Assembly (NCBI RefSeq): GCF_002844555.1
Contig: NZ_PJNI01000001.1
Location: 124,001 to 188,000, forward strand
Source of the DNA: Brumimicrobium salinarum
GTDB taxonomy: Bacteria; Bacteroidota; Bacteroidia; Flavobacteriales_D; Crocinitomicaceae
DNA: 64,000 nucleotides
Direction: 5' to 3'
Shown: one piece after another, positions 52,640-56,722 of the stretch
Layout: each line of letters starts with the position of its first letter
How positions within the stretch are numbered: the stretch's first letter is position 1
The notes under the pieces: model-generated
What the model was told of the DNA's origin: nothing
Databases searched by the model: none
Seen by the model: only the letters and a program-made list of their open reading frames with translations
Made by a program: the position numbers and the translations under genes

Positions 52640-53848
52640 TCATCCTTCATAATTATCCAAGCTCCAATGAAAATCCTCCTCCATCAAAGGCATTTTCCTC
52701 CAATTAAGCCCCTCCCCATAAATCGTCCATCCAAAAACTTCAGATTTAATTTCTAGACTTTTATCATCTTCTGAATAGTTGTATTCTAATTCAATTTTCA
52801 CTCCGTCGTAATCAGTTAAAATCAATTGGTTTTCTAAAACCTCTAGTTTATAATCTTCCATGGAATCGTCTGCGTATTGAAAGATGAAATAATGTTGTCG
52901 GTGAATAAAAAATCGTTTGATATCGAAGTTTTCTGGTAATCCTTTTGATTTAGAAATTGAGATTTCATACGCACCATGCAGAGGGTTTCTGGGGACAGTA
53001 TCATCGTTGTAATTTCCAGATTGAATATAAGGAAAAAGTGATTCACTGAAGATAAACAAGACAACAATTCCTTTTATTGAAAACCGAATAACTTTAGAAT
53101 AGATGAGGTTTTTATAGGTCAAATAAGGAAGCGAAGTGGATTTATTCATTACAAAAAACTGAATGATCTTTTTAATTGATGGAGCAAGCAATAACAGATT
53201 GATAAACAATAAAAAGAAAGAAAACAGTTTCACAGAAATATCGAATCCGAGATTAACAAAAAGCACATGAATCAACACTCCTGATAGAATAAAAAGCCCT
53301 AGGATTCTGGTTCGTTTAAAAAGCAACATCAAAGCGGGAATGACTTCCATTAATCCAATAAAAATATTGTAGAAATATGAAGAACCAATGGTGCTCCAAT
53401 ACAAAATGTCTTTGTCTAATTTTCCTAAAGGAGTAAAGAGCAAATTGGGTTCAGGAAGATAGAATTGTGCCTTAAAGACTTTATCAAACCCATATTTTAG
53501 CATAATCAAAGCGAGATAATAAACCAAAATCATTTTAAAAATGTTGAAGATTTTGTATTGGTGTTTCTTCCAAAATCCTGATAATTGAAGAATGCTAATA
53601 AGAAATATTGCAATTAAAAACAGTACCAAAATCAACAAATAAAAAGTTGTTGAATCAGAAGAGATTTCAGGATTTGTAATTTTAATCCACTCAAATGAAT
53701 TTCCAATGCCTAAAAGCAAATCTTCGAATAGAAATTGAGTCATTTCAGCTTGAAAATTCCAGTTTCTAAACGTAAAAGGAATGAAAATCACACCTAAAAC
53801 CCCAAATAGTAGGAAGTTTGAATATAAAAAAGACTTCGATTTGCTCAT
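52640..53848 (-). CDS. DoxX-like multipass membrane protein
   Basis: 402 residues with about eight hydrophobic segments, then a soluble C-terminal part (about 290-402). The YGFDKVFKAQFYLPEPNLL stretch is the sort of sequence seen in DoxX/HTTM-related Bacteroidota membrane proteins; the assignment to DoxX is a loose one. No active-site motif is visible. It follows the small secreted-protein gene with a 6-base gap, so the pair may work together. Confidence 0.55.
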   Translation of the reverse strand: MSKSKSFLYSNFLLFGVLGVIFIPFTFRNWNFQAEMTQFLFEDLLLGIGNSFEWIKITNPEISSDSTTFYLLILVLFLIAIFLISILQLSGFWKKHQYKIFNIFKMILVYYLALIMLKYGFDKVFKAQFYLPEPNLLFTPLGKLDKDILYWSTIGSSYFYNIFIGLMEVIPALMLLFKRTRILGLFILSGVLIHVLFVNLGFDISVKLFSFFLLFINLLLLAPSIKKIIQFFVMNKSTSLPYLTYKNLIYSKVIRFSIKGIVVLFIFSESLFPYIQSGNYNDDTVPRNPLHGAYEISISKSKGLPENFDIKRFFIHRQHYFIFQYADDSMEDYKLEVLENQLILTDYDGVKIELEYNYSEDDKSLEIKSEVFGWTIYGEGLNWRKMPLMEEDFHWSLDNYEG

Positions 53849-53854
53849 CTGTTT

Positions 53855-54298
53855 TTATTCTTCTTTAAATCCTATGAATTCTACTTCTTCTATGGGATTT
53901 GAGAAAAGTACGGGATATCCTATTCTTCCTCTTGAACGAATATAGTTTTCGGTATTTTTAGCGTTCAAGTACCTGTGATTATAAACTGTATCTGTTTTTC
54001 CTCTAAATTCTGAAGGTTTTAAATCTTTATAGCCAACGTGATAAGGATAACAAACTTTAGAAATCCTAGATTTAAAAATTGTTGTTGAATCATTTACAGC
54101 GATTACAGAATCTAAAACCATTAAATTCGTATTTCCTGGCAATCCGAAATTGGAATTTTTAATGTCAAATAAATTGTTTTTATAAGCTTTAGCAAATGAC
54201 TTTTTAGATCCGCTGTGACTTTTATGGGCAATCAATTTAGTTTGAGAATGAGCAAGGAGTCCACAAAATAAGAAGGAAATTAAAATGTACTTTTTCAT
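53855..54298 (-). CDS. Small secreted protein of unknown function
   Basis: 147 residues from the ATG at 54298 (MKKYILISFLFCGLLAHSQ, a clear signal peptide). The body has no motif I recognise; it is basic, with HKSHSGSKKSFAKAYKNN near its start. An upstream in-frame ATG at 54322 would put eight residues before the signal peptide, so 54298 is preferred. It precedes the DoxX-like gene. Confidence 0.65.
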   Translation of the reverse strand: MKKYILISFLFCGLLAHSQTKLIAHKSHSGSKKSFAKAYKNNLFDIKNSNFGLPGNTNLMVLDSVIAVNDSTTIFKSRISKVCYPYHVGYKDLKPSEFRGKTDTVYNHRYLNAKNTENYIRSRGRIGYPVLFSNPIEEVEFIGFKEE

Positions 54299-54758
54299 GA
54301 TCAATAGTTTTTGTTTCACCACTGTACAAAGAGGATTGTAAAGGGTTCAAAAATTCAGTTACGAATTCACAATTACACATTAAAATTGTATTATTGGGTT
54401 ACCAAGATAAGTCGTAATTATTTAAAAAGAGATTCCTCGTCGCCCCGAGTTCTCGGGACTCCATCGGAATGACAGGTGTTTGTTGGTTTTGGCGGGGTAA
54501 AATTTGCTCAAGCTTCGCTTGAGCAAATTTTACCCCGAATACCTCCTTATGAGCTGTCATTCCGATAGTTGTTAAAATCTAATATTTTAACAACTGAGGA
54601 ATCTCTTCTTCCTTTTTTTGATAAAGTTTAACACTAGATAAAATTAATTCATACAGTTCTCGGCTGTAATTATTGAAAAAACACAACCATAAAACTAGGA
54701 TTAACGACCTAGCTTGTAGCCCAGTTGTATTATACTTTTTTCTAGATGATAATAATTC
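54299..54758. other. Long non-coding gap with a compound palindrome
   Basis: About 460 bases between the small secreted protein and the beta-barrel gene. It contains the compound inverted-repeat element at 54427-54607. I see no ORF with a family match. The rest is AT-rich; a promoter for the secreted-protein gene probably lies at its left. Confidence 0.6.
54427..54607. repeat. Compound palindromic element (four nested stems)
   Basis: Outer repeat AAGAGATTCCTC (54427-54438) / GAGGAATCTCTT (54596-54607), 12 bp. Inside: hairpin CCCGAG-TT-CTCGGG (54444-54457), a 13-bp stem ATCGGAATGACAG / CTGTCATTCCGAT (54463-54475, 54554-54566) enclosing a 21-bp perfect hairpin starting CGGGGTAAAATTTGCTCAAG (54493-54513 with 54517-54537, 3-base loop), and a 12-bp hairpin AGTTGTTAAAAT / ATTTTAACAACT (54567-54578, 54584-54595). 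The last stems abut exactly, so the strand could fold into a multibranch structure. Similar GGAATGACAG/GAGGAATCTCTT pieces are, from memory, dispersed repeats in this phylum. Confidence 0.75.
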
Positions 54759-55499
54759 CTACTGATATTTTCCAAAAGTGTAATTTGCTCCAAGGGCGGC
54801 GTAATGAAATAATGAAAAGGTGTACACTTCATCGTTGTCTGCTCCGCCTTCTAAAACACGATATCCTGCACGAAGCTCTAGTTTTTTACTCAGATCATAT
54901 GTCACTGCAAGTAGCACATCTTCAGCACGACCTTGAGGCGCTGCTAAAGCATCTCCATCCAGTAAAATTCCGAACTTTTCTGTGGGTTTATAGCCAACTC
55001 TAAAATTGATAATGGGAACAAAACCAACGTTGTTCTTCACAGTGCTTTTATCTGTTGATTTCAATCCAATGTTTGCATCTCGAATTTTTGCTGTAAATCC
55101 TATTCCAACAATCCACTTCGGATTTTTAACGATGTCATAGCGGTAAGTTAAACGATAAGAATTGAATCTAAATTCACTTTCTAAAGGAATATTGGCAGCA
55201 AATACCTCTCCATTAAACTGAACTTCTCGATCTAAACTTCCTGTAGAATTAATCGTTAATGGTGCGTATAATAAAGAAATATTATGTCTATCAGCAATCG
55301 TATAAGTAGCGCTTAACCTAACGAAAGGTTGTGGCTTGGTTTCCAATTCCTCAGTGAGCGAAAAAAGCGTTCCTTGATCTCCCGCAATTCTCACATCGTT
55401 ATATCCACTGAAAAGCACCCCAGTTTCAGCATCTAAACTCAATTGAGCTGTTAGAATTAAATTAAAACAGCAAAAAATAAAAATTAGAATAAATTTCAT
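54759..55499 (-). CDS. Outer-membrane beta-barrel protein
   Basis: 246 residues. A signal peptide (MKFILIFIFCCFNLILTAQ) precedes alternating strands typical of a small barrel, such as VRLSATYTIADRHNISLLY and GIGFTAKIRDANIGL, and the end is ALGANYTFGKYQ. It looks like a porin or OmpW-like small barrel but has no clear family signature. It is a single gene after the compound palindrome. Confidence 0.7.
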   Translation of the reverse strand: MKFILIFIFCCFNLILTAQLSLDAETGVLFSGYNDVRIAGDQGTLFSLTEELETKPQPFVRLSATYTIADRHNISLLYAPLTINSTGSLDREVQFNGEVFAANIPLESEFRFNSYRLTYRYDIVKNPKWIVGIGFTAKIRDANIGLKSTDKSTVKNNVGFVPIINFRVGYKPTEKFGILLDGDALAAPQGRAEDVLLAVTYDLSKKLELRAGYRVLEGGADNDEVYTFSLFHYAALGANYTFGKYQ

Positions 55500-55594
55500 T
55501 GCATTATAATTTGATTACATCGTAAAAACAAAACACAATCACACTTAGTTTTATAAGCAACGGTAAATTATGTTAAACCATCGATAACAAAATT

Positions 55595-56722
55595 TTATTG
55601 AACCACAATTTTGGAATGCTTCCACTTGTTATTAATCAGCATTTTTACAAAATAAGTTCCTGATTCCACATTGATCTCATGGTTGTTCACTGCGTAATTA
55701 CTTGAAGATTTTATCTTCTTTCCTTCAATAGAATAAATCTCTACCTCATCTATATTATGTGATGTATGAATTGTAAAATTTCCTGAATTTGGATTCGGAA
55801 CTATATTTACTTCATGATTTTGGTTGTTATCCGATATTTTCAATAAAGTTTGACGGTCATATTGACTAAAAAACCTCCAGATCTCTTTACTCGCATCTAT
55901 ATCGTAATTGGTTTTATCTATGTCTGTAGAAGCTCCAGGCCATGAGTGACCTCCTTTAACAATCTTAAAATGTTCAATTGTTGCTCCATTTGATCCTCCA
56001 GAATAAAGATGCCTTTCAACCGTTGAACTATCACTAAGAACAATGTTTGGCATATAAAAAATCTGCGGTGAAGTATATGCGCCTACTTGACTAACCCAAT
56101 GTCCGACAACATAATTTACAGATGCAAAGGTTGCGTTTCCACTATAAGGAACAAGAGTATCTTCGGTACCATGAATAAACATAGCAGGAGTAGGTTTATT
56201 TGGCAAACATGTATTCACATGTATATTCAACATTGTACCAGTTACTGAAGCAATTGCAGTAACTTTATTAGATAGATTACAACCTAAAAAAACACTCATA
56301 AAGCCTCCGTTACTCATTCCAGTGGCATAAACTCTATTTTCATTGATTTCATATTGGGCAGATAATTCATCGATTAAAACAGATAAAAAACCTATATCGT
56401 CTGGTCCATTTTGTTGGAAGTAATTCCATGTTCTTAAATTATTAACATCAAGAAGTCCGTTGGGAACGACCATTATAAAATTAGCTGTATCTGCTATATC
56501 ACGAAATTCTCCGTAAGAAATCTGATGTGACATAGAGGAACCATACCCATGTAAATTTAAAACAAGTGGAACTTTTGATTGTCCTGTATAGGATTGTGGA
56601 ACATAAACAATGTATGACCTTGTCTCACCATCATACTGCATAGTTTCAATAGTTTGCGTTCCAGTTTGTGCACAACTCAAATGCAAAGTGAAAAAGAAAA
56701 GAAGAGTAATAAAATATCTCAT
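55595..56722 (-). CDS. T9SS-secreted esterase (PHB depolymerase-like)
   Basis: 375 residues. A signal peptide leads into an alpha/beta-hydrolase of the polyhydroxybutyrate-depolymerase/feruloyl-esterase type: VPLVLNLHGYGSS, nucleophile in ATGMSNGGFMS, Asp in HGTEDTLVPY, His in GGHSWPGAS. The last ~75 residues are a type A T9SS tail (IVPNPNSGNFTIHTSH, GTYFVKM). It would be exported by T9SS and hydrolyse an ester polymer. The substrate is unknown. Confidence 0.88.
   Translation of the reverse strand: MRYFITLLFFFTLHLSCAQTGTQTIETMQYDGETRSYIVYVPQSYTGQSKVPLVLNLHGYGSSMSHQISYGEFRDIADTANFIMVVPNGLLDVNNLRTWNYFQQNGPDDIGFLSVLIDELSAQYEINENRVYATGMSNGGFMSVFLGCNLSNKVTAIASVTGTMLNIHVNTCLPNKPTPAMFIHGTEDTLVPYSGNATFASVNYVVGHWVSQVGAYTSPQIFYMPNIVLSDSSTVERHLYSGGSNGATIEHFKIVKGGHSWPGASTDIDKTNYDIDASKEIWRFFSQYDRQTLLKISDNNQNHEVNIVPNPNSGNFTIHTSHNIDEVEIYSIEGKKIKSSSNYAVNNHEINVESGTYFVKMLINNKWKHSKIVVQ

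Follow-up and report, generated by a model that had tools for sequence, protein, structure and literature searches.

A REP-like hairpin cassette in Brumimicrobium salinarum as the probable passenger of an IS1595-type MITE

Introduction

In REPINs and BIMEs, two inverted REPs make up one long palindrome. Among insertion sequences, a target duplication of 8 bp is the usual length for the IS1595 family. REPs that bear a CGTC tag have been reported in Bacteroidetes, some of their dimers lie inside other palindromes, and the tail-to-tail arrangement is called rare for these elements in the excerpted account (PMC3733652). REP counts have also been tabulated for two Flavobacterium genomes, in the portion of a further report drawn on here (PMC12306157). 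Template switching, for its part, is marked by two-sided changes and inverted loops (PMC8794818, in excerpt), and has likewise been described for the arms and spacers of inverted repeats (PMC8604942, in excerpt).

The locus described here is assembled from parts of known kinds; as far as the literature tells, what is new is the way they combine, the tail-to-tail placement and the recurrence of loop inversion. It lies in a window of 64,000 nucleotides, the whole stretch of DNA that was analysed, from the Brumimicrobium salinarum genome (GCF_002844555.1, 86 contigs). Quite probably, the feature is the core of an IS1595-type MITE, with a REP-like hairpin cassette that travels as a passenger and is kept perfect by template switching, and we infer that no host function need be assumed for the cassette.

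A compound palindrome of two REP-like units

The feature was first reported as a compound palindrome of 181 bp (54427-54607; neither it nor its hairpins are assigned a strand), and a base-by-base check confirmed every one of its listed stems at the stated place. The outer 12-bp stem is formed by the T motif, whose left arm at 54427-54438 (minus strand, reverse complement GAGGAATCTCTT) pairs exactly with the right arm GAGGAATCTCTT at 54596-54607 (plus strand). The inner 13-bp stem is formed in the same way by the H motif, at 54463-54475 (minus strand, reverse complement CTGTCATTCCGAT) and, again as an exact partner, CTGTCATTCCGAT at 54554-54566 (plus strand). Two inverted REP-like units thereby flank a central hairpin at 54493-54537, which has perfect arms of 21 bp and a 3-nt loop that reads TTC here and GAA in other copies. 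The two remaining hairpins are the small 6-bp hairpin 1 (CCCGAG-TT-CTCGGG, 54444-54457) and hairpin 2 (54567-54595), with arms of 12 bp and a loop that is CTAAT in this copy and ATTAG in others. The exact stacking originally ascribed to these stems holds for the right-hand side, where three of them abut gapless (54566/54567 and 54595/54596), but not for the left, where 5 nt separate 54438 from 54444 and another 5 nt separate 54457 from 54463. That such packing is unlikely by chance is borne out by folding: as RNA, the palindrome reaches -96.7 kcal/mol versus -42.0 +/- 3.9 kcal/mol in 200 shuffles (z = -14, far outside the shuffles), none of which folded as well.

In its general plan the core is a cassette in which two REP-like units with TGTC tags stand inverted, tail to tail, around a perfect triloop hairpin of ~20 bp, each ~21 nt away from it. 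The pattern TGTCATTCCGA...GGAAT on both sides sets a TGTC tag beside a stem that starts with AT, as in CGTC/TGTC REPs. By inspection, the half-unit stem is 5 bp long, short of the 8-9-bp stem with a 4-5-bp loop expected of such REPs, and a longer insert, often another hairpin, separates its arms. Because of this departure in stem and loop the units are termed REP-like rather than filed as REPs. Their tags face inward in 30 of 30 aligned copies, where REP dimers are expected to be mostly head-to-head.

An IS1595-type MITE

The palindrome, although real, was drawn too narrowly. The repeated unit is a whole MITE of 331 bp at 54394-54724 (no strand assigned), plus its 8-bp duplications, with boundaries established by the alignment of eight copies from the B. 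salinarum genome and by the target duplications. The unit common to these eight copies begins TTGGGTTACCAAG and finishes ...GGTAGCCCAG. Its ends, of ~24 bp, are inverted repeats of each other and start TGGGYTACCAAG...; in the window, the left one, (T)TGGGTTACCAAGATAAGTCGTAAT, occupies 54394-54418 on the plus strand, and the right one, with reverse complement CTGGGCTACAAGCTAGGTCGTTAA, occupies 54701-54724 on the minus strand and is 1 base shorter than that of sister copies. Flanking both is the unstranded target-site duplication TTGTATTA, whose left copy at 54386-54393 is identical in all 8 of 8 bases to the right copy at 54725-54732. No ORF of at least 80 aa overlaps 54394-54724, leaving the MITE without a transposase gene.

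Copies were found in the same genome and in relatives, so that the palindrome is not a single-copy feature. Queried against the B. salinarum genome, it gave 31 matching stretches, some of which are the palindrome matched to itself on the opposite strand. The end pattern, at no more than 3 mismatches, has 21 matches in this genome versus 0 for a reversed control pattern, and is present in nine of ten Brumimicrobium genomes, with the most matches in B. glaciale (G002). An exact scan for it in GTDB r220 contigs, from which the records of the B. salinarum genome itself are possibly absent, returned 16 stretches, all of them from Brumimicrobium: B. glaciale, B. oceani and one uncultured isolate. 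Pairing of ends across the sampled loci yielded 41 candidate elements, including 12 complete ones in B. salinarum. Duplications were evaluated for 36 of the 41, drawn from five Brumimicrobium genomes, after five elements (L128, L159, L161, L167 and L168) had been excluded by eye, mostly for degenerate or misaligned ends; one of these, L128 from genome G008, has TGGG/CCCA ends and flanks without apparent duplication. Among the 36, the paired duplications match on average at 7.25 of 8 positions, with 20 exact and 29 identical at 7 or more. Shuffled partners match at a mean of 3.96 +/- 0.22, and none of 2000 shuffles produced more than 7 pairs at that level; the next 8 bases outward of the duplications match at only 2.64.

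No clean empty site was found among the five other genomes that have the flanking gene. In the two closest of them (G003 and G004, at L149 and L150) no element lies beside this gene, and the neighbourhoods have diverged and are not syntenic, which accounts for the lack of a clean empty site. A loose scan for ends at all five loci gave one match, in L150, which was taken as chance. Elsewhere in the B. salinarum genome, two MITE copies on contigs C65 and C12 (L005 and L006) have host DNA that is alike on both sides, which suggests a duplicated segment carrying the MITE.

The mobilising transposase

The complete element that matches the MITE is found in a sister genome (G007, at L120), where MITE-matching ends bound an element of 1,021 bp that has a single long ORF. 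Its product matches both DDE_Tnp_IS1595 (E 1.8e-17) and Zn_ribbon_IS1595 (E 6e-6) above cut-off, and its target duplication is TAAAGGAA. Since this insertion sequence combines the identical end type with an IS1595-family transposase, the window element is assigned as an IS1595-type MITE. Such a transposase would act in trans on the MITE ends. This step is put conditionally because no intact IS1595 transposase with MITE ends was found in the 86 contigs of B. salinarum, and because B. glaciale yielded no IS1595 hit despite having the most end matches. The sole B. salinarum relative of the L120 transposase (L141, C76:75666-76529) is another IS1595-family transposase, with 40% identity to it and one in-frame stop; it has no MITE ends and is seemingly flanked by a different end, GAATTCCCCA. 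In genome G004, two elements of near-IS length (L121, 932 bp, and L122, 923 bp) have MITE-type ends and no transposase ORF that could be seen; they are possibly decayed insertion sequences or larger passengers.

The original prediction offered mobility by a REP-type transposase and looked to a genomic TnpA-REP for support. The element would then be a REPIN or BIME, two inverted REPs moved by a RAYT (TnpA-REP), a reading that draws on the resemblance of the half-unit to CGTC/TGTC-tagged REPs and on the four RAYT-like genes among the six Y1_Tnp genes of B. salinarum. Yet none of these genes carries the paired unit. A search with the PF01797 profile gave 39 Y1_Tnp hits across the ten genomes of the genus, and a motif scan allowing at most 1 mismatch in H and none in T found 0 of the 39 with paired H and T at their ends, on which ground the REP-transposase link was rejected. 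The 39 hits include 10 loci with a lone H-like match; that at L012 lies ~0.1 kb past the ORF and is absent from its twin L011. The cassette nearest to any Y1 hit is ~0.8 kb from a broken fragment, in genome G009. Moreover, the RAYT flanks at L011, L013 and L014 have another hairpin, and MITE copies show 8-bp target duplications and DDE-type ends. Mobility by a REP transposase is accordingly unsupported, and we regard it as very improbable; an IS1595-family DDE transposase is what the ends, the target duplications and the complete element with matching ends indicate. This ties REP-like palindromes, for which a REP transposase would be the usual assumption, to a MITE of the DDE type. The four RAYT-like genes themselves (L011-L014) lie on contigs C5, C76 and C65, two copies being ~2 kb apart on C5; L011, L013 and L014, of 185 aa, share ends with the hairpin CTACCACGAGATGAAATCTCGCGGTAGCGGGG, which is likely a separate REP family.

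The cassette as a passenger

The cassette occurs both inside the MITE and without MITE ends, and the MITE tolerates its loss. Several B. salinarum copies lack either the central hairpin or one of the two halves, and since some derivatives without the central hairpin retain target duplications, the palindrome looks like a passenger. A single deletion junction is common to two such derivatives, L007 and L008/L053, which occupy different sites and have duplications of 6/8 and 8/8, so that either the deleted copy has probably moved or the identical deletion arose twice. A second MITE group in the same genome (L037, L038 and L039) has the identical plan with different stem letters and, judged by eye, different spacers as well; cassettes with different letters in two MITE groups would reflect at least two uptakes. 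Among elements of G002 and G004 with MITE-type ends, some have interiors unrelated to the palindrome. MITEs with matching ends and other palindrome-rich interiors (CCACAGAGTGG motifs) were seen at L123-L126 in these two genomes, and one end type seems to carry several palindrome cargoes.

Cassette geometry was measured on 32 copies. This hairpin set excludes L129:408-667, L049 and L028, which are complete elements or dimers with H arms and no central hairpin, as well as L157, which is truncated but has a perfect hairpin. Under 3-nt loop scoring, the spacers measure 18-25 nt to the left and 19-24 nt to the right of the central hairpin. In alignment A1, which holds 30 of the 32 after omission of two G002 copies with insertions, the H-to-H length is near-constant at 102-110 nt. 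A covariance model, R1, was built from 23 copies, A1 less seven near-identical ones; with at most 13 candidates scored in each genome, its copy numbers are lower bounds. With R1, 13 of 299 genomes sampled from the order proved to contain the cassette, comprising seven of ten in the genus, four others in the family and two in another family; among 296 genomes sampled from the phylum, B. salinarum alone matched. The REP-like half-unit alone is wider, in 60 of these 296 genomes, against 0 for the reversed pattern in the control columns listed. Of 20 further R1 hits retrieved, 15 (11 of 14 outside the genus and four of six within) proved to have perfect hairpin arms of at least 12 bp; hits from outside the genus differ considerably in their hairpin letters and have loops of 3-7 nt. 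At one locus in G003 (L165, C7:88300-90900), several cassette copies form a tandem array with a 303-bp period, indicating that local duplication also spreads cassettes.

Stem perfection and loop inversion

The central hairpin is almost free of mismatches. Across the 32 copies, 603 of 608 of its inner pairs are Watson-Crick, and the inner 19 pairs are perfect in 29, a count that includes class B copies picked for perfection. Among the 30 aligned copies, the whole structure pairs in 93.4% of cells, which falls to 34-51% when partners are slid by 1-3 columns. For the central helix alone the paired share is 99.1%, with 10 of its 16 pairs changed on both sides. Counted per sequence and not per event, the central helix has 62 two-sided cells versus 1 one-sided and 4 unpaired, while the outer and inner stems sum to 16 two-sided versus 18 one-sided; the Fisher p of 2e-9 for this comparison is overstated, as related sequences are treated as independent. 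Pairing in the 13 class B rows is inflated, since these were found by searching for perfect hairpins; the 17 MITE rows, for which a perfect hairpin was not required, give 24 two-sided versus 1 one-sided and 4 unpaired. Of 500 shuffles, 7 attained the observed value of one covariation measure, further pair types. The compensatory stem changes that the original prediction had named as a check are therefore present, and its description as a structured repeat stands, the element being multicopy with pairing kept through two-sided changes.

Such a pattern is what one might read as a structured regulatory or processed RNA, with stems selected since the transcript folds, and the folding z of -14, the strong two-sided changes and the conserved spacing all lend themselves to that reading. 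The central helix, however, is almost devoid of G-U or one-sided intermediates (1 vs 62), loop orientation flips, and internal deletions are tolerated. Nor is there an Rfam match at the gathering score: in 53500-55600, the six matches at E up to 1 are all microRNA models far below gathering. Gene orientation shows no clear preference at 42 hand-picked loci. An RNA function is, on this evidence, decidedly unlikely, and what keeps the hairpins perfect would seem to be errors in DNA copying, not the making of a useful RNA.

Otherwise near-identical copies have central loops in both orientations, TTC/GAA, TAC/GTA and TCC/GGA, and the loop of hairpin 2 likewise occurs as CTAAT/ATTAG. With the central hairpin and the tip of hairpin 2 set aside, 15 copies give a best tree on which the central loop must have changed 5 times and the hairpin 2 loop 2 times; of the 5 central-loop changes, well-supported branches force at least 2. 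Both signs expected of template switching, two-sided changes without intermediates and loop inversion, are found here, and from them we infer the copying event itself: the strand would fold during replication, and one hairpin arm would be copied from the other. Template switching of this kind would keep the stems perfect while flipping the loops, and it probably offers the best explanation of the two-sided variation together with the loop flips. It does not obviously explain, on its own, the near-constant H-to-H spacing.

The main alternative to template switching is selection for DNA symmetry, which in a strict form could also give few one-sided changes. The palindrome would then be a protein-binding cruciform or a BIME-like nucleoid or gyrase site, and its two-fold symmetry, the ~21-nt spacers on both sides and the 29 of 32 perfect inner hairpins are what such a site might look like; the loop flips, too, indicate that the arms truly pair in DNA, and lend indirect support to a cruciform or hairpin at the DNA level. 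Against a selected site stand the patchy spread (13 of 299 genomes in the order, one of 296 in the phylum) and arm sequences that differ strongly between groups, because of which any protein binding would have to be specific for shape. Judged from sequence, such a site seems unlikely, and template switching is retained as the preferred account of the perfect stems.

Genomic setting

Both genes beside the window MITE are on the minus strand and gave no Pfam match. The stop of the one at 54759-55499 is 34 bp away from the MITE, which in turn precedes the ATG of the other, at 54298, by 95 bp. A bidirectional transcription terminator or mRNA 3'-end stabiliser might be imagined at such a place, and by eye the outer stem is often preceded by A-rich and followed by T-rich DNA, but no terminator-like site was found in 54200-54900 and gene orientation shows no clear bias, so that we give this function hardly any credence. 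With a simple ORF caller and the 42 loci hand-picked for long enough flanks, 20 MITE copies fall in 12 tandem, 6 convergent and 2 divergent settings, and 22 cassette-only copies in 10 tandem, 5 convergent and 3 divergent ones, the last 4 being 2 within an ORF and 2 at the edge of a contig; for the other gaps of those loci the counts are 12 tandem, 4 convergent and 2 divergent. The same scan as the terminator search returned 6 promoter-like sites versus 2.4 expected. The MITE could affect the promoter of the gene starting at 54298.

Comparison with known systems

No description of the MITE or the cassette was found in titles and abstracts of the open-licence literature, a weak absence, and among the titles listed for the H motif none looked related. 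It is conceivable, if doubtful, that the cassette forms an element class of its own, one that is set by its geometry and not by its letters, regenerates in situ through template switching and has been taken on as cargo by DDE transposons time and again. If that were true, perfect 'compensatory' evolution would be a mutational by-product, and a warning against reading covariation as RNA function. A dispersed natural family with both two-sided stem changes and loop flips offers a test of RNA selection against replication errors as the source of covariation, and thus bears on the calling of structured RNAs from alignments.

Among described systems, the CGTC-tagged REPs, as excerpted (PMC3733652), are alike in the TGTC tag, the AT-starting stem and the occurrence of dimers; the cassette differs from them in its tail-to-tail arrangement, its 5-bp ATTCC/GGAAT stem with an insert, and the perfect hairpin of ~20 bp between the partners. 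IS1595 (ISXO2-like) insertion sequences and their MITEs share the inverted ends matching a complete insertion sequence, the 8-bp duplications and the lack of an own gene, but the interior here is a REP-hairpin-REP palindrome also found outside the MITE, and not a decayed transposase gene. With REPINs and BIMEs the cassette shares a long palindrome formed by two inverted REPs; unlike them, it was found without a linked RAYT, and its carrier is a DDE-type MITE. In the manner of its variation the cassette resembles the template-switch hairpins (PMC8794818), which, in the excerpt, also change at several compensating positions at once and have their loops completely inverted. Those are RNA genes, including rRNA, whereas here the changes occur in a dispersed bacterial repeat, with loop flips in two hairpins of one element family.
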